In this document: one piece after another, positions 33,022 to 62,680 of the stretch
How positions within the stretch are numbered: the stretch's first letter is position 1
Layout of the letters: the number at the start of each line of letters is the position of its first letter
Assembly: GCF_039962115.1 (NCBI RefSeq)
Contig: NZ_JAMPKJ010000018.1
Span: 1 to 64,000, forward strand
Source: Funiculus sociatus GB2-C1
GTDB lineage: Bacteria; Cyanobacteriota; Cyanobacteriia; Cyanobacteriales; FACHB-T130
Direction: 5' to 3'
DNA length: 64,000 bases
Notes under the pieces: generated by a model
What the model was told of the DNA's origin: nothing
The model's input: the letters and a program-made list of their open reading frames with translations, nothing else
Database searches by the model: none
Translations under genes and position numbers: made by a program

Positions 33022-34395
33022 ATGTCTAAAATACAGTCTTCTGGATCGCGACTGCTGTTGATTCTTGCCGCCCCCGTTATTAGCCTCGGACTTGCAAAAC
33101 CAGGACTAGCTATAACCACCTACTACGTTGCAACCAATGGTAGTGATAGCAATTCTGGGAGCCAAAACAGTCCATTTGCCACCATCACCCACGCAGCTAC
33201 CAAGGCAGACCCAGGCGATACGGTATATGTCCGAGGAGGCACCTACAGGTTTTCTCAAGAACAATACATCGGCAGCGTCGGCACCTCCAGCAATCCGATA
33301 AGCTACCAATCTTATCCAGGGGAGAAAGTAATCCTAGATGGCTCTCGAACACCAAGCAACACCAACATAGTGAACGTAGCTGGCAGCCATAACATCTTCA
33401 AGGGCTTTGAACTAGACAACGCTAAATTTGTCGGAATTGTCTCCTGGGGTGGCAAGAATATCCAAATCCTCAACAACGTCATTCAGGACTCTCACCGGAA
33501 CGCTATCTTTGTCGGTTACGACAAAAATATGACCACCGCCTCAAACATCCAGATCAAAAACAACACCGTATACTCAAATTGCCTAGTTAATAAGAGCCGT
33601 AACACAGATGGTGGATGGCCGCAAGCTATCGGCAGCAGTATGGCGAGTAACATAACCATCAGCAATAACCATGTGTATGAGAACTATGGTGAGGGAATCG
33701 GCATTGTTCTCACCGACGGCGGTGTTGCCTCTGGTAATAAGGTGCATGACAACTACAGCGTGAATCTGTACCTGGATAACGCCACTGATATCACAGTAGA
33801 GCGAAACCTCATTTACACCACCAACAATACGGAATTTTACCGTTACGGTAAACCAGCTAGCGGGATTCAGGCAGCTAATGAACCTTATGGATCTTCCAAT
33901 CCAGTCAAGGACATCACAATCCGCAACAATATTGTCATCGGGGGCATTACAGGCTTCGCTTACTATTCAAGCTATGGCAACGGCGGGGGCATGAAAAACT
34001 TTGTCATTGCCAACAACACGTTTTACAAAGCGGGGCGAGCCATGCTTCTCATCGAAGATGATAAAGGGCATAAGAGTAATCTAATTGCCAACAACATTTT
34101 CTACCAAACTGGCGATGGCGAGATGACGGAAATGTCAGACAAAACTAAATCGACATTTCAGAATAATGCTTGGTTCGGTGGCAGTGCGGGTGTTGCTGCG
34201 GGTAGCGGCGACGTGAACGCAAACCCGATGTTACTAAATCTGGGTTCTCTGGTGGCAAGTGACTACCAGTTAAAAGTCGGTTCGCCATTAATTGAGGCTG
34301 GTACTAAGCTTAGTGAAGTCCCTAATGATTATGCGGGATCGAGCCGACCCCTAGGGCAAAAGCATGACATTGGGGCTTACGAATTTTTTAAGTAG
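33022..34395 (+). CDS. Secreted right-handed beta-helix protein, copy 1
   Basis: 457 residues. Signal peptide about 1-30 (LLLILAAPVISLGLAKPGLA). The DUF1565-like start TTYYVATNGSDSNSGSQNSP with DPGDTVYVRGGTY is typical of secreted polysaccharide-active or surface beta-helix proteins. The middle is a series of parallel beta-helix (PbH1) turns such as NIQILNNVIQDSHRNAIFVG and NITISNNHVYENYGEGIG. The end, SPLIEAGTKLSEVPNDYAG plus DIGAYEF, is a 'choice-of-anchor Q' type terminus. May bind or cleave a glycan; no catalytic residues can be assigned. Ribosome-binding site gaagaggaa. Its tandem paralogue is at 35123-36496. Confidence 0.9.
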   Translation: MSKIQSSGSRLLLILAAPVISLGLAKPGLAITTYYVATNGSDSNSGSQNSPFATITHAATKADPGDTVYVRGGTYRFSQEQYIGSVGTSSNPISYQSYPGEKVILDGSRTPSNTNIVNVAGSHNIFKGFELDNAKFVGIVSWGGKNIQILNNVIQDSHRNAIFVGYDKNMTTASNIQIKNNTVYSNCLVNKSRNTDGGWPQAIGSSMASNITISNNHVYENYGEGIGIVLTDGGVASGNKVHDNYSVNLYLDNATDITVERNLIYTTNNTEFYRYGKPASGIQAANEPYGSSNPVKDITIRNNIVIGGITGFAYYSSYGNGGGMKNFVIANNTFYKAGRAMLLIEDDKGHKSNLIANNIFYQTGDGEMTEMSDKTKSTFQNNAWFGGSAGVAAGSGDVNANPMLLNLGSLVASDYQLKVGSPLIEAGTKLSEVPNDYAGSSRPLGQKHDIGAYEFFK

Positions 34396-35122: not shown

Positions 35123-36496
35123 ATGTCTCAAATTAAGTCTTCTGGATCGCGTCTGCTGTTAACTCTTACTGTCTCCATTGTTAGTCTCGGACTTGCAAAA
35201 CCAGGACTAGCTATTACCACCTACTACGTTGCAACCAATGGTAGTAATAATAATCTTGGAAGTCAGAACAGCCCCTTTGCCACCATCACCCACGCAGCTA
35301 CCAAGGCAAAGCCAGGCGACACAGTATATGTTCGGGGAGGCACCTACACTTTTTCTAACGAACAATACATCGGCAGCATCGGCACCTCCAGTGCGCCAAT
35401 TAGTTACCAATCCTATCCAGGTGAGAAAGCAATCTTAGATAGCACTCGAACTCCAAGCAACAGCAACCTGGTGAATGTAGCTGGCACATACAACATTTTT
35501 AAAGGCTTTGAACTCAAAAACGCCAAATCTATAGGCATTGTGTCATGGGGTGGAAAGAACATCCAAATTCTCAACAACGTCATTTACAACTCCTACAAAA
35601 ACGGTATTTTTGTCGGTTTCGACAGAGATATGACCACAGCATCAAACATCCGGATCATTGGCAACACCGTTTACTCAAATTGCCTGGTAAATAAAAGCCG
35701 CAACCTTACTGGTGGATGGCCCCAAGGGATAGGCAGCACTATGGCAAGCAACATAACCATCAGCAACAACCACGTGTATCAGAACTATGGCGAGGGAATC
35801 GACTTTGTTCTCACCAACGGCGGTGTTGCCTCTGGTAATAATGTACATGACAACTACAGTGTGAATCTGTACCTGGACAACGCCAGCAACATTACAGTAG
35901 AACGCAATCGTATTTACACCACCAACAACACAAATTTCTTCCGAGACGGTAAACCTGCCAGTGGTATTCAAGCAGCTAATGAATACTATGGATTTTCCAA
36001 CCCGATCAACAACATCAAAATCCGCAACAACATTGTCATTGGGGGGAATACAGGCTTTGCCTATTTTTCAAATTATGGGAGAGGCGGAGGCTTGAAAAAC
36101 TTTGTCATTGCTAACAACACATTTTACAAAGCAACACGAGCTATTCTCCTAATCCATAATGATTCTGGGCATACAAATAACCTAATTGCCAACAACATTT
36201 TCTATCAAACTGGCGGCGTTGCGATGACAGAAATTCCAGCCAAAACTGGATTAGCATTTCGGAATAATGCTTGGTACGGTGGTAGTGCTGGTATTGCTGG
36301 GGGTACTGGCGATATCACCGCGAATCCGCTGCTTGTTAATCTGGGAACTACGGTAGCAACTGACTACAAGCTGAAGCTTGGTTCACCAGCAATTGAAGCG
36401 GGTACTACGCTTACTCAAGTCACCAATGATTATGCAGGATCGAGCCGACCTCTAGGGCTGAAGTATGACATTGGGGCTTACGAATTTTTCAAGTAG
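35123..36496 (+). CDS. Secreted right-handed beta-helix protein, copy 2
   Basis: The same 457-residue length and domain order as copy 1: signal peptide, TTYYVATNGSNNNLGSQNSP, PbH1 turns (NIQILNNVIYNSYKNGIFVG) and a 'choice-of-anchor Q'-like end (SPAIEAGTTLTQVTNDYAG). The two differ by scattered substitutions and no frameshift, so both seem to be under selection. Differences cluster in exposed turns (for example EGIGIVLTDGG versus EGIDFVLTNGG), which could mean altered ligand binding. Ribosome-binding site gaaaaggaa. Confidence 0.9.
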   Translation: MSQIKSSGSRLLLTLTVSIVSLGLAKPGLAITTYYVATNGSNNNLGSQNSPFATITHAATKAKPGDTVYVRGGTYTFSNEQYIGSIGTSSAPISYQSYPGEKAILDSTRTPSNSNLVNVAGTYNIFKGFELKNAKSIGIVSWGGKNIQILNNVIYNSYKNGIFVGFDRDMTTASNIRIIGNTVYSNCLVNKSRNLTGGWPQGIGSTMASNITISNNHVYQNYGEGIDFVLTNGGVASGNNVHDNYSVNLYLDNASNITVERNRIYTTNNTNFFRDGKPASGIQAANEYYGFSNPINNIKIRNNIVIGGNTGFAYFSNYGRGGGLKNFVIANNTFYKATRAILLIHNDSGHTNNLIANNIFYQTGGVAMTEIPAKTGLAFRNNAWYGGSAGIAGGTGDITANPLLVNLGTTVATDYKLKLGSPAIEAGTTLTQVTNDYAGSSRPLGLKYDIGAYEFFK

Positions 36497-56120: not shown

Positions 56121-56409
56121 TGGGGGGATTGCCCTCCCTGCTACAGGAAGCGTTACAGTTTAACTCTTCGGGAAGCTTGACGCGATCGCTTCTTTCTCCC
56201 AATCGCGATCGCACCCATACTCCCAAAAAATTATTTTTCCTGAACATAATTACTTTTCCCAATGTATAGTATCATTTACTACAGATATTTTTGCCAAAAT
56301 GTCTTATATATGGCCAGGTTAAACGTGACGTGACAGCAAAGAAGAGTTAATATTTACTATCCTTTACAAAAGATATTGATAAAACGTGAGTTTTATCAAA
56401 ATCTACAAC

Positions 56410-58347
56410 ATGGAAGCATCATTTGAAATTACCCTGCAAATGGTTTTAACCGTTATTGCAGGAATCAGCGCCCAGGTTATAGCCGAATATCTCCAGGTTC
56501 CCAGCATCGTCTTTTTGTTGCTATTTGGTATTTTACTGGGGCCAGACGGATTGAGCGTGCTACACCCTAACCAGCTAGGAACTGGTTTAGAAGTCATGGT
56601 TGCCCTCTGTGTAGCAATCATTCTCTTTGAAGGCGGGCTTAACCTGGAACTCAAAGAAATGGGTAAAGTTTCCGGTAGCCTGCGAAATCTGGTGACACTG
56701 GGGACGCTTATAACGCTGCTTGGCGGAGGCATGGCGGCTCACTGGTTGGGTGAATTTCCCTGGCCTATTGCCTTTCTCTACGCATCTCTGGTGGTGGTAA
56801 CGGGGCCAACAGTAATCAGTCCCCTGCTCAAACAGGTGCAAGTAGACCGACAGGTGGCAACGCTTTTGGAGGGAGAAGGCGTTTTAATTGACCCAGTTGG
56901 GGCAATCCTTGCGGTCGTCGTGCTAGACACCATTGTGAACGCGGATACTGATCCGCTGGAAGCTTTCATCGGTCTTATTGTGCGCGTAGGCATCGGCGGC
57001 GGTATCGGCGTTGCTGGTGGTTGGTTGCTGGGTTTGATTCTCAAACGCGCCAAGTTTCTTTCCGAAGACTTGAAAAACCTGGTAGTTCTGGCTGGGTTGT
57101 GGGGTTTGTTTGGTCTGGCGCAGACAATCCGCAGCGAGTCGGGATTGATGGCAACAGTTATGGCGGGAATTGTCCTGGGTGCTGCCTCTATCCCAGAGGA
57201 GCGCCTGTTACGGCGCTTTAAAGGACAATTAACCATCTTCAGCGTCTCGGTATTGTTTATTCTCCTGTCTGCTGACTTGTCCATTGCCAGCGTGTTTGCC
57301 CTAGGGTGGGGCAGCTTGTTCACCGTGTTGGCGCTAATGTTTATCGTGCGCCCGATTAACATCGGCTTGTGTACGTTGAATAGTGGACTGAATTGGCGAC
57401 AAAAGTTATTTTTATGCTGGATTGCTCCCAGAGGAATTGTTTCTGCATCTGTTGCGTCCTTGTTTGCCATTTTTCTGACACAGTATGGCATCAATGGCGG
57501 CGATTCCATCAAGGCGCTGGTTTTCCTCACTATTATAATGACCGTATTTTTCCAAGGGCTGACGGCGCGTTGGGTTGCCGCCTGGTTGCGAATTAACCCC
57601 CAGAACGCAACTGGGGCTGTAATTATTGGTTGTAGTCCCTTAAGCCGCCTGATTGCTCGTCTATTTCAAGAGCGAGGAGAATCTGTGGTGCTGATTGATA
57701 CAGACCCCGAAGCTTGCAAAATTGCGGAACAGGAAAATCTGCGGGTGTTCTTGAGCAGCGGTTTGGATATGGAAGTTCTGGAAGAGGCGGGACTGGCTTC
57801 TATGGGAACTTTCGTGGCGATGACGAATAATGGGGAGGTTAATTTAGTGTTGGCGCAACGAGCAGCAGAAGAGTTTCGTCCGCCTCGCGTTTTGGCAGTC
57901 TTCCCGCAAGCCAATATGGCGACTAATAATACAAAGGTTCACCAAGCTTTTATTCCTCAGCTGTCGGTAAAGAATTGGAATCAGTACCTTAACGAAGGGC
58001 AGGTGAAGTTAGGTAAAACGACGCTTAGAGAAGATGGGTTGGCTTTTCAACAAGCTCATCTACAAGCCTTAATTCGTGCTGGGGAGCTAGTACCATTATT
58101 GTTTGAGAGAGAGCAGCTTTTCCAGGTGGTGCCAGCAGCAGAAGAGTGGCAGCCTGGAGATCAGATTATTTATCTGCTGCATGACCCTAGACCTAAACTG
58201 TTGAAGCGGTTATCGGGTGGGAGTCCCTCTTCTCGTCTGGCCTTGGAGAAGTTGCCAGAAGTGGAGGAAGTGCCGATTTCTGCGGTGGGTGTTGGTGTGG
58301 GGGAACTCAAGGTTGAGAATGCTGTACAGCCTCCTGTTTCTGGATAA
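56410..58347 (+). CDS. CPA-type Na+(K+)/H+ antiporter with TrkA-N domain
   Basis: About 645 residues. N-terminal ~390 residues: a dozen TM helices with the family segments VPSIVFLLLFGILLGPDGL, LFEGGLNLELKEMGK, TGPTVISPLLKQV, LEGEGVLIDPVGAILAVVV (with the acidic ion-binding Asp) and WIAPRGIVSASVASLFAIF. Residues about 400-520 are a TrkA-N Rossmann domain (AVIIGCSPLSRLIARLFQER), which usually senses NAD(H) or a similar ligand. The start could also be GTG 56386; ATG 56410 preferred. Confidence 0.92.
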   Translation: MEASFEITLQMVLTVIAGISAQVIAEYLQVPSIVFLLLFGILLGPDGLSVLHPNQLGTGLEVMVALCVAIILFEGGLNLELKEMGKVSGSLRNLVTLGTLITLLGGGMAAHWLGEFPWPIAFLYASLVVVTGPTVISPLLKQVQVDRQVATLLEGEGVLIDPVGAILAVVVLDTIVNADTDPLEAFIGLIVRVGIGGGIGVAGGWLLGLILKRAKFLSEDLKNLVVLAGLWGLFGLAQTIRSESGLMATVMAGIVLGAASIPEERLLRRFKGQLTIFSVSVLFILLSADLSIASVFALGWGSLFTVLALMFIVRPINIGLCTLNSGLNWRQKLFLCWIAPRGIVSASVASLFAIFLTQYGINGGDSIKALVFLTIIMTVFFQGLTARWVAAWLRINPQNATGAVIIGCSPLSRLIARLFQERGESVVLIDTDPEACKIAEQENLRVFLSSGLDMEVLEEAGLASMGTFVAMTNNGEVNLVLAQRAAEEFRPPRVLAVFPQANMATNNTKVHQAFIPQLSVKNWNQYLNEGQVKLGKTTLREDGLAFQQAHLQALIRAGELVPLLFEREQLFQVVPAAEEWQPGDQIIYLLHDPRPKLLKRLSGGSPSSRLALEKLPEVEEVPISAVGVGVGELKVENAVQPPVSG

Positions 58348-58390: not shown

Positions 58391-59077
58391 TTAATTTTTG
58401 TTGGTAAGAGTTAGGGAGTTTGAATCAATTTCTGCTTGAGTTAAATCTGGCTCTGAGGTTGAAGATATGGCTTTTAATTCCATTTGAAGCCGCGCTTGCT
58501 GTCTTTCCTGCACCAGTAGTGCGCCGAGATGGGTGATGGCGATCGCGATCGCGCTCACAGATAAAATGTAGCTGTGTATTGTATATAGATGTTCCACGGT
58601 TGCTGTGTTTATCGCGCCGCCGCCAGTAAGGATGTCTCGCAACTGGGAACCAATAAAAGGAATCGCTTCGATGGTTTGCAATTCGATGCTTAAACGCCAG
58701 TAGCCTAGCTGACTCCAATCGAGTATCATAGCTGTCCATGCCAGCGCGATCGCATTTAAAGTAAAGAAAATTACGCTAATCCACCCAGTTAACCAGCTAT
58801 TTGTAAATTTCCTCCCTAGAAACATCACTACTATTTCGATTAGGGAGACTACAATTAGCCCATTTCCAGCAATATCGTGAACGTCGCGAATTAGCGAACC
58901 ATTGGGAACTTCAGTCGCAATATTCTTTAAAGATTCGTAAGCGCCTCCCGCAGACGGTTCGTAGTAAAAAGCCAACAAAATACCCGTAAAAGCTGCACTC
59001 AAGCTTAATGTAAGAATAGAGACTGCCAGGATTGTCGCCAGCCGCCGGAAAATGAATTCATACTTCTCGGTATTCAT
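58391..59077 (-). CDS. Cytochrome b6-like membrane protein with an altered heme ligand
   Basis: 228 residues, four TM helices, aligning by eye to cytochrome b6: AFYYEPSAGGAYESLKNIAT; then SLIRDVHDIAGNGLIVVSLI plus E, where the first His is kept but the residue 14 further, normally His, is Glu; DWSQLGYWRLSIELQTIEAI, matching PWDQIGYW of b6; and LYTIHSYILSVSAIAIAITH with both helix-D His residues. So three of four heme ligands remain. Not the photosynthetic petB. It diverges from the dispersed-repeat region upstream. Confidence 0.8.
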   Translation of the reverse strand: MNTEKYEFIFRRLATILAVSILTLSLSAAFTGILLAFYYEPSAGGAYESLKNIATEVPNGSLIRDVHDIAGNGLIVVSLIEIVVMFLGRKFTNSWLTGWISVIFFTLNAIALAWTAMILDWSQLGYWRLSIELQTIEAIPFIGSQLRDILTGGGAINTATVEHLYTIHSYILSVSAIAIAITHLGALLVQERQQARLQMELKAISSTSEPDLTQAEIDSNSLTLTNKN

Positions 59078-59358: not shown

Positions 59359-60057
59359 TCATGCCAAATACGACACCCAAGCCTTGAAAGGCTCTGGCGA
59401 ACCGTACCAAATGCCGGGGGTTCTGGGAGAATGTTTCACACCTTCAATTACCAGATTGGTTGCTCCCTCTAGATGAGCAGCTTCAATCGGGGTAATCCCG
59501 TCTCCCCAGCTGTTACCAACTCCGCAAGTTAATTTATAACTGCTGTATGCTAGCCACTGGCCCGGACGCCTTGCACCGTAGATGGACTTACCAGCGACAC
59601 AGACATAACGAACCTTTGGGTAAAAGGCTCCCGGATAGTTGATTTTGACAAAATCTAGATTTTTTTTAGTCCAGCGTTCGCCACTGATATGAGGCGTTCC
59701 TAATGTTACCAAAGTGGCAACATTGGGGTGAGCGTGCCAAAGTCCAGCGTCATCGGTGACATCTTTGTGAATCGAGTAAGGTGTTTCTCCCAGATAGATG
59801 CGGGAAATCCAGCCGCCTGCTGAGTGACCGATTAGGTTAATCTGAGAAACGTTGTATTGCTGCAACATTTGTTTTACCGTGTGGTCGAGTTGCCGCAAAA
59901 TGGGAATCATCGACCGGCCTCCCACAGTGGGGAACCAATCCCGACCGCGCAAGGGGACTGTGACGGCGGGAAAACCCAGCTGTTGTAAAGATTGTTCTAG
60001 TTGACGGTAGGCGATCGCGCCTTCCAAATATCCGGGCAAAATGACTGTAGGCAACAC
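59359..60057 (-). CDS. Alpha/beta-hydrolase (lipase/esterase type)
   Basis: The core LPTVILPGYLEGAIAYRQLE has the oxyanion-loop region; the nucleophile elbow is GHSAGGW; DDAGLWHAHPNVATLVTLGT and a His in VIEGVKHSPRTPGIWYGSPE complete the catalytic machinery. I chose GTG 60057, which begins right at LPTVILPG. The ORF is open to 60348, but that part lies antisense to cobI and does not look like protein. A TTG at 60093 is another option. Predicted cytoplasmic. Confidence 0.87.
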   Translation of the reverse strand: MLPTVILPGYLEGAIAYRQLEQSLQQLGFPAVTVPLRGRDWFPTVGGRSMIPILRQLDHTVKQMLQQYNVSQINLIGHSAGGWISRIYLGETPYSIHKDVTDDAGLWHAHPNVATLVTLGTPHISGERWTKKNLDFVKINYPGAFYPKVRYVCVAGKSIYGARRPGQWLAYSSYKLTCGVGNSWGDGITPIEAAHLEGATNLVIEGVKHSPRTPGIWYGSPEPFKAWVSYLA

Positions 60058-61039: not shown

Positions 61040-62680
61040 ATGTCCCATCTATCATTCATTAAAGACCTGCCTGGAAAGGTTTCTCAACCGCCTGTGATTG
61101 CCGCCTTGGCTTCCTTGGGCCTTCACGGACTATTGGCATACACTCTGCCCAGTTTATCTGCATCGTCTAAGCCGGAGGAGCAGAAGCCGCGAGGAACTGT
61201 CAAAGTAGTGCAGTTAACTCCGGCAGAACAAAGCCGTATCCCGCAACTGGCACCGCCGCCTGTAGCGCTGCCTCTTCCTAACCCAACCCAGATGTTCCCG
61301 CCTTTGCCGCCGCCGTCATCTGACGCGCTGCCGCCTATCCCTAATATTCCCAATTATCCATCGCTGGCTGACGCTTTGCCGCCGCCTAGTGTAACAATTC
61401 CGTCTGATATTTTGCGGATACCGGGCGCGCCGCCTCAGATAAGAACAAGGGGAGATTCTTTCAAAATTTCAGCGGCTCCCTCCGGTGTACCTCGTTATAC
61501 ACCGCCAGATCCCCGGAAGTTTGACTGGCGCGATCGCATTCGTCAGTCTGAAAGACTGCCCTCTGGTGTCCAGTCTGAGAAGTTCGACATTTCCAAGCTT
61601 CCGCCACCTCCTTTTTCCCAGCCACAACCTTCTACTACTACTGAGGCACAATCTTCTCCTAATCCCGAACCACAATTTTCTCCTAATCCCGAACCACAGT
61701 TTTCTCCTAATCCCGAACAACGTTCTGCTACTACTGAGCCACAATTTTCTCCTAATCCCCAACCACCTTCTTCTGCTACTACTGAACCACAACCTCCTGC
61801 TACTCCTGAACAACGGACATCCCCGCAAGAGCTAGCGCAGGCGCGGGTATCGCAACTGCTGGCAGATCAACGACAGCGACGACAAGATTTTAAAGAAGAT
61901 GAAATCAGCTCCAGTGATAACGACGGAAAAATAAAAGGCGCTCGTTGGTTGACAGAACGAGGAAAACGTAATTGGCAAGAGATGACAATCGTTGCCAGCT
62001 ATCCTAAAGATGCCTGCTTCATGCAGCGTGAAGGCACTGCTAAGGTTGCAGCTTTGGCGGATTCTAATGGAAACCCAATCGGACAGCCGGATCTACTTCA
62101 GAGTTCAGGCGATCGCATCTTGAATAAAAAAGCCCAGGAGGTTGTTAAGAACTATAAATTTCAACCAACGGGTGAAGAACAAGCTTACATGGTGGGTGTG
62201 AAGTTTGACTACAACAAGGAAAGTTGTCCCCAGGTGAGTGCTGCGCCACGCGATCGCACTTCTACAAGAACTCCAGAATCCTCAAAACCGCAAGCTTCAC
62301 CCAAACCGGAAGCATCAACAAAACCAGAAACTTCTACTAAACCAGAAACCGAAGCCAAACCTGAAGAGTTAAGCAGACCCAACGAGTCGCGCAAACCGGA
62401 AGCTTCTCCTAAACCGGAAACTTCTACTAAACCGGAAGCTTCTCCCAAGCCGGAAGCCGAAACAAAACCGGAAACTTCCACTAAACCGGAAGCTTCTCCC
62501 AAGCCGGAAGCCGAAACAAAACCGGAAACTTCTACTAAACCGGAAACTTCTACTAGACCGGAAGCTTCTCCCAAGCCGGAAGCTTCTCCCAAGCCAGAAG
62601 AGTCGCCTAAACCGGAAGCTTCTCCCAAACCGGAAGAGTCGTTTAAACCGGAAGAGTCGCCAACTCCAACGGAGAATTAA
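61040..62680 (+). CDS. TonB-like protein with Pro-rich stalk and long C-terminal Lys-Pro-Glu tail
   Basis: N-terminal TM anchor (PVIAALASLGLHGLLAYTLP), a Pro-rich periplasmic stretch to about residue 290, with repeats of FSPNPEPQ type, and a TonB-C-like domain at about 315-395 (MTIVASYPKDACFMQREGTA, LNKKAQEVVKNYKFQPTGEE). Residues about 414-546 add tandem KPEASPKPE / KPETSTKPE units after the domain that usually ends TonB. 546 residues. TonB links cytoplasmic-membrane energy to outer-membrane uptake; no ExbB/D gene is adjacent. Confidence 0.8.
   Translation: MSHLSFIKDLPGKVSQPPVIAALASLGLHGLLAYTLPSLSASSKPEEQKPRGTVKVVQLTPAEQSRIPQLAPPPVALPLPNPTQMFPPLPPPSSDALPPIPNIPNYPSLADALPPPSVTIPSDILRIPGAPPQIRTRGDSFKISAAPSGVPRYTPPDPRKFDWRDRIRQSERLPSGVQSEKFDISKLPPPPFSQPQPSTTTEAQSSPNPEPQFSPNPEPQFSPNPEQRSATTEPQFSPNPQPPSSATTEPQPPATPEQRTSPQELAQARVSQLLADQRQRRQDFKEDEISSSDNDGKIKGARWLTERGKRNWQEMTIVASYPKDACFMQREGTAKVAALADSNGNPIGQPDLLQSSGDRILNKKAQEVVKNYKFQPTGEEQAYMVGVKFDYNKESCPQVSAAPRDRTSTRTPESSKPQASPKPEASTKPETSTKPETEAKPEELSRPNESRKPEASPKPETSTKPEASPKPEAETKPETSTKPEASPKPEAETKPETSTKPETSTRPEASPKPEASPKPEESPKPEASPKPEESFKPEESPTPTEN
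62281..62676 (+). repeat. KPE-coding tandem repeat region
   Basis: Imperfect 12- to 15-base units (aaaccggaagcttct and variants) in higher-order blocks of about 27-66 bases, all in frame with the TonB-like gene. Prone to slippage, so length may vary between strains. Confidence 0.85.

Follow-up and report, generated by a model that had tools for sequence, protein, structure and literature searches.

In respiration and photosynthesis few proteins are as conserved as cytochrome b, whose four ligand His residues are usually treated as fixed. PMC10715153 describes a 'deranged' cytochrome b in the bc1 complex of Acidiphilium and Acidocella: the gene is retained, the His ligands of heme bH are lost, and a structural role is proposed for the protein. 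In an algal b6 mutant devoid of a bH ligand (Malnoe et al. 2011, as cited in PMC10715153 and PMC7174583), b6 can persist without the n-side heme. A literature search found no account of the cyanobacterial b6-like family analyzed below, which is not proof of absence.

The b6-like gene (Table 1) is located in the window, that is, the whole 64,000-nucleotide stretch of DNA under study. Its product matches the Pfam family PF00033 (Cytochrome_B, N-terminal domain) at 85.6 bits against a cut-off of 27.2, and aligns without gaps to the b6 chain 1vf5_A (query residues 21-183 to b6 residues 40-202, E 4.6e-22). The AlphaFold2 model of the protein (pLDDT 87.7, pTM 0.77) shows four long helices together with an amphipathic cd segment. 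The top Foldseek match of this model is cytochrome b6 4h0l_A (E 2.7e-9), and the top ten matches are all b6, with TM scores on the query of 0.68-0.72; VIA matched the model to 2e74_A with Z 20.2 (2.7 A over 188 residues), and its first nine matches are b6 with Z 16.9-20.2. In both lists the b6 entries are followed by cytochrome b of bc1. Judged by this model, the protein is a predicted member of the cytochrome b6 fold. The promoter scan, with one promoter-like site against 3.0 in shuffled sequences and five terminator-like sites against 2.3 (sd 1.8), yielded nothing above the shuffles.

Table 1. Coordinates of the b6-like gene, its ligand-position codons and the genes discussed with it.
Feature	Coordinates	Strand	Description
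b6-like CDS	58391..59077	minus	228 aa from ATG; ORF and translation
His67 codon (CAC)	58877..58879	minus	b6 His86, p-side heme ligand, helix B
Glu81 codon (GAA)	58835..58837	minus	b6 His100 position, n-side heme ligand
His168 codon (CAC)	58574..58576	minus	b6 His187, p-side heme ligand, helix D
His183 codon (CAT)	58529..58531	minus	b6 His202, n-side heme ligand, helix D
hydA	59359..60057	minus	lipase-like alpha/beta hydrolase; directly upstream of b6-like; candidate partner
Na+/H+ exchanger gene	56386..58347	plus	convergent neighbor; PF00999, 187.8 bits
Second b6-like gene	L002 1432-2073		contig C39
Hydrolase gene overlapping the second b6-like gene	L002 450-1457		contig C39

Three PF00033 matches were found in the genome: petB beside petD on contig C3, the window protein, and a second similar copy. 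The single PF00032 (PetD) match adjoins the true petB. Since a separate petB and the sole petD lie elsewhere in the genome, the window gene is not PetB, and the proposal of the first-pass annotation that it encodes a b6 paralogue is supported. The window protein shares 24-30% identity with the PetB proteins of its genome and of related ones, and the family is distinct by profile as well: on profile A2, which was built from 13 rows including the window protein (whose own score is thus high by construction), family ORFs score 310-376 bits vs 111-123 bits for complete PetB. The PetB comparison set comprised 18 rows, of which 17 are complete; the 18th is one piece of a broken family copy (L017, 1471-2084) split between two frames, and the pieces of this copy score 171 and 116 bits on A2. 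The best NCBIfam profile is that of ExtP (NF040969), a b-type cytochrome of selenite/tellurite reduction operons, yet its score of 106.6 bits is far below the cut-off of 290 bits.

The 143 loci collected for the family gave 126 ORFs, of which 111 are unique and 110 have a letter at position 81. The family occurs in many cyanobacteria: within the phylum, a member scoring at least 311 bits is present in 32 of 386 genomes. The named relatives, the best 80 of 203 confirmed, are all cyanobacterial loci with approximately 29 genus labels, and the closest among the matches listed is from Trichocoleus sp. FACHB-40 (96% identical). Among viral sequences, eight pattern matches were obtained and none was confirmed. 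Plasmid-borne relatives were rejected: all 41 records are less than 60% identical, and the four inspected are full-length cytochromes b of 369-486 aa. Three of the four have an annotated iron-sulfur or Rieske gene next to them; the neighbor of the other is a hypothetical protein. Membership in an anti-phage system was likewise rejected, as PADLOC gave no match for either the b6-like protein or the hydA product.

Helix B of the window protein (LIRDVHDIAGNGLIVVSLIEIV) contains His67 and, exactly 14 residues later, Glu81, whereas helix D (EHLYTIHSYILSVSAIAIAITHLG) holds both His168 and His183, as the first-pass annotation had read the ORF. A constant offset of 19 to b6 equates residues 67, 81, 168 and 183 with b6 positions 86, 100, 187 and 202, the four established heme ligands of cytochrome b6. 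A diheme cytochrome b or PetB has His at all four of these positions, and the window protein has Glu at position 100. All 17 complete PetB rows have His at the equivalent of b6 His100, as do four of four cytochromes b from Bacteroidota, Alphaproteobacteria, Deinococcota and Actinomycetota (a small alignment with a gap in helix A, hence rows 16 and 18 were left out). In the family, position 81 is occupied by Gln in 95 of the 111 unique members, Glu in 13 and Asp in 2, with one gap in the broken copy and His in none; the second copy in the genome also has Glu. This contrast with PetB goes beyond chance. The family sequences examined contained neither another His at the ligand site nor a homolog with His there. 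Glu is not fixed among the homologs, the point on which the first-pass annotation had wanted an alignment; by the alignment, Glu81 is a lineage state, Gln the common residue, and the ligand His lost in all members examined. With Glu, Gln or Asp facing His183, bis-His ligation of the n-side heme is excluded.

The other three positions are mostly retained: His67 in 108 members (Tyr in 2, one gap), His168 in 103 (Asn in 8) and His183 in 106 (Asn in 5), and all three residues are kept together in 111 of the 126 family ORFs. The replacements have a restricted distribution. All three His are present in 44 of 44 rows outside a Nostocales clade of 74 rows, and within this clade Asn168 occurs in 8 rows, Asn183 in 5 and Tyr67 in 2, at least one of these being found in 14 rows. 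We counted changes on a protein tree of 118 family rows, from which seven duplicates, the broken copy and the ligand columns had been removed, and on a DNA tree. Both trees were quick ones (SH-aLRT only), and in the protein tree 47 of the 112 inner branches are open, so the counts are approximate: the fewest changes are 6 for His168, 3 for His183 and 2 for His67 on the protein tree, and 7, 3 and 2, respectively, on the DNA tree. Thus, of the first-pass expectation that one heme should be lost or differently coordinated, the absence of a bis-His n-side heme (bn/bH) stands, but not the limitation to one heme, since Nostocales also replace ligands of the other.

Among 42 columns that are near-invariant outside the clade, His168 ties with Ala176 for the most changes inside it, and 24 never change there, including Trp99, Trp114, Trp121, Trp127, Arg128 and Glu132. 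The genes are under purifying selection: median pairwise dN/dS, computed for the 951 pairs of moderate distance among 2701, is 0.165 for ligand-intact pairs (581), 0.179 for pairs with one broken member (322) and 0.179 where both are broken (48). As the values of the broken copies are near those of the intact ones, the broken copies are still selected. Because ligands are replaced in parts of Nostocales, the role of the protein there should not rest on electron transfer.

Sequence constraint is distributed unevenly. At a threshold of 98% or more in 110 unique members, 34 columns are conserved, 25 of 116 in the p-side half and 9 of 67 in the n-side half (22% vs 13%; mean entropies 0.81 vs 0.89), the halves being drawn by us. 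Eleven of these columns are in the 38-residue cd loop, seven in the 21-residue ab loop and none in helix D. The n-side half of helix C has 5 of 13 columns at this level and the lowest mean entropy (0.54), and no part of the protein varies more than the half of helix D near His183 (0 of 17, mean entropy 1.30). The modest p-side excess in the alignment points to a p-side function but is not proof of one.

The reading that we favor, at about even probability, is a stand-alone b6 paralogue that has lost the n-side heme, keeps at most one bis-His heme, and has a binding or structural role with no trans-membrane electron relay. This reading has the following components: (i) the n-side (stroma/cytosol-side) heme would have been lost from a four-helix b6 paralogue, (ii) at most one bis-His heme b would remain on the p-side (lumen/periplasm), between His67 and His168, a heme that most lineages would bind and that parts of Nostocales perhaps lack, (iii) the protein would work via conserved p-side loop residues, namely the invariant Arg128 and Glu132 together with Trp121 and Trp127, and (iv) as a membrane protein it may bind quinone, pigment or lipid, have a structural role, or hold a partner. 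A single p-side heme provides no electron relay across the membrane. Without PetD the quinol-oxidation site of b6f is incomplete, and in a protein with no PetD of its own the Q cycle should not run. Diversion of electrons across the membrane by the b6-like protein, one of the roles suggested in the first-pass annotation, is therefore unlikely, given one heme or none, no own PetD, and no Rieske gene among the neighbors scanned with Pfam.

The surroundings of both heme sites are altered; in cytochrome b the Gly and Arg residues concerned pack on the hemes or face their propionates. At the p-side heme, b6 Gly51 is always kept in the family, Gly135 is Ala in 107 of 111 members, none of the 111 has Arg87, and only 29 retain Arg83. 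Because the p-side site is altered at Gly135, Arg87 and Arg83, the presence of even one heme is uncertain. Next to the n-side heme, every one of the 110 members with a letter at b6 Gly37 has Ser or Ala instead, and Gly121 is Val in the window protein and still Gly in 97 of 111. Cys35, which belongs to the extra c-type heme and is found in 17 of 17 complete PetB, is Ile in the window protein and absent from the family.

The same residues bear on the possibility that the n-side heme is kept and is five-coordinate via His183, with Glu or Gln on the distal side, in a high-spin gas-binding (O2/NO) or peroxidase-like sensor or oxidase. On the distal side of gas-binding hemes Gln and Glu are usual, and in cytochrome bd Glu can serve as a heme ligand. 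Together with this precedent, the retention of His183 in all but five members despite the loss of its partner, and that of Gly121, would suit an open heme; yet the half of helix D that carries His183 is the least constrained part of the protein, Gly37 is replaced throughout, and His183 itself was lost three times in Nostocales, and we consider such a heme unlikely.

The favored reading leaves room for a partner, and the candidate is the product of hydA. The start of this gene was set by alignment with relatives, the mechanical ORF extending to 60348. A gap of 281 bp separates it from the b6-like gene in the window. Its product matches Abhydrolase_1 and PGAP1 (Pfam) and has a GHSAGG motif, with Asp186 and His209 invariant in nine sequences. 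The lipase matches of its model (best E 1.7e-4, TM on query 0.35) are weak because of the low confidence of the model (pLDDT 67.7). Among the named loci (the best 80 of 203), hydA is located within 500 bp upstream of the b6-like gene on the same strand in 58, comprising 44 of 48 Nostocales loci and 14 others, one of them unplaced and the rest from Chroococcidiopsidales, Leptolyngbyales, Chroococcales and Coleofasciculales; 21 have no adjacent hydA, and for two of the 21 the available upstream sequence is too short. In 16 listed loci without hydA, no common alternative partner stood out. In the phylum sample, a strong hydA match (at least 276 bits) was found in 59 genomes, in some of them with a stop or in two pieces (G311), and a match of any strength in 90. 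Strong matches are present in 28 of the 32 genomes with a b6-like gene, nearby in 24, and four of the 32 have no counted hydA; with hydA alone in 31 genomes, its distribution is wider than that of the b6-like gene. These counts disregard relatedness among the genomes. In one genome (G366), hydA is interrupted by stops and matches as three pieces, whereas the b6-like gene next to it is free of stops.

The linkage suggests a function in thylakoid lipid or pigment turnover. No signal sequence was seen by eye in the hydA product, so it should sit on the n-side and not near the p-side loops of the b6-like protein. The link to hydA in the favored reading is weakened by this placement, by the hydA-only genomes, and by the b6-like loci without hydA. 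The second b6-like gene of the genome shares approximately 25 bases with the beginning of another alpha/beta hydrolase gene, different from hydA; this other hydrolase is also beside the b6-like gene in Trichocoleus sp. FACHB-40 (L045) and is approximately 2 kb away in L037 and L038.

Several other genes recur near the family. Of the 80 named loci, 48 have the Na+/H+ exchanger gene on the opposite strand at a distance of no more than 500 bp, and 35-41 have psbV, petE (plastocyanin) and petJ (cytochrome c6) on the same strand, approximately 3-5 kb upstream (e.g., L066, L096, L054). The linkage to the exchanger, psbV, petE and petJ is probably synteny only. A gene for a CrtW-like beta-carotene ketolase abuts the b6-like gene in two related genomes (L013, 705-2145; L015, 1501-2991), with match scores of 267-272 bits, below the cut-off of 350; one of these two genomes (G022) has no hydA match.

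Elsewhere in the window, two nearby genes at 33022-34395 and 35123-36496 encode 457-aa proteins that are identical at 358 of 458 translated positions (stop included) without gaps; both have a secretion-type N-terminus and are possibly beta-helix proteins. A gene at 61040-62680 encodes a proline-rich protein that ends in a long stretch of KPE-type repeats forming its C-terminal part, and an open frame of 139 aa (62209-62628) lies antisense to it.

The ketolase neighbor and the nature of the ligand replacements raise a further explanation, in which the four-helix bundle binds a Mg-tetrapyrrole (chlorophyll) or a carotenoid instead of heme and the adjacent hydrolase or ketolase acts on the pigment. 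More generally, the b6 fold would have been turned to a different cofactor, be it chlorophyll, some other tetrapyrrole or a ketocarotenoid, with ligands suited to Mg rather than Fe and neighbors acting on pigment or thylakoid lipid. We regard both the specific and the general form as quite improbable. Gln, Glu, Asn, Asp and His are known chlorophyll ligands, and the replacements seen at the four ligand positions are Gln, Glu, Asp, Asn and Tyr. Nine of the 11 His replacements are to Asn (6 + 3 Asn and 2 Tyr among the protein-tree changes); 9 or more would have p ~3e-7 under the crude null that all one-base changes of a His codon are equally likely. The failure to keep Arg83 and Arg87 would also fit a pigment without free propionates. 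Against this, the ketolase neighbor is confined to one clade of two rows (L013 and L015), the weak matches of hydA are to lipases, and pheophytinases are likely absent from cyanobacteria according to PMC5853334.

Even less credit can be given to an alternative PetB isoform that replaces PetB in b6f under some condition. The predicted fold is the same, the size is similar, and psbV, petE or petJ are located upstream in roughly half of the named loci, but the protein has neither His100 nor Cys35 of b6, lacks approximately 19 N-terminal residues of PetB, shows low identity to it, and has lost further ligands in Nostocales, with no second petD in the genome. A b6f isoform with its own PetD was rejected, there being only one PetD in the genome. 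Finally, repeated ligand loss and the one clearly broken copy might be taken for decay of a functionless duplicate, but this has very little probability given the low dN/dS, on which a pseudogene was rejected, the 34 highly conserved columns and the spread over some 29 genus labels.

The stand-alone binding or structural paralogue is thus the reading we retain, and several observations are in tension with it. The retention of all three remaining His in most family ORFs is odd if the heme is little used. The conservation of Gly121, the well-conserved n-side half of helix C, and the modest size of the p-side bias also count against it, as judged from the alignment.

A Pfam match alone would label the family members ordinary cytochrome b. 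The family offers a ready-made natural series in which to study the capabilities of the b6 fold once its hemes are gone. Compared with PetB of b6f, it shares the four-helix fold, the TG, WxQxGYW and LxxH motifs, and three of the four ligand His. Unlike PetB, it has (i) Glu, Gln or Asp for His100, (ii) no Cys35, (iii) replacements of Gly37 and Gly135, (iv) a shorter N-terminus, (v) no PetD of its own, (vi) His for b6 Arg182 in 105 of 111 members, and (vii) the invariant Arg128 and Glu132, plus Trp114, which are absent from PetB. The fold and the Pfam family are known, and loss of bH ligands is known from the bc1 complex of acidophilic Acetobacteraceae, as described in PMC10715153. As in the 'deranged' cytochrome b of Acidiphilium and Acidocella, the gene is kept though bH ligation is lost; the loss there concerns the cytochrome b of a bc1 complex encoded in a pet operon, whereas the members of the present family are separate, short paralogues that accompany an intact PetB, and some of them have also lost p-side ligands. 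The mutant of Malnoe et al. (2011), as cited, is a laboratory variant of PetB inside b6f, unlike the natural paralogue described here. What is new is a conserved short b6 paralogue in which one ligand is lost in every member examined and the others are lost repeatedly.
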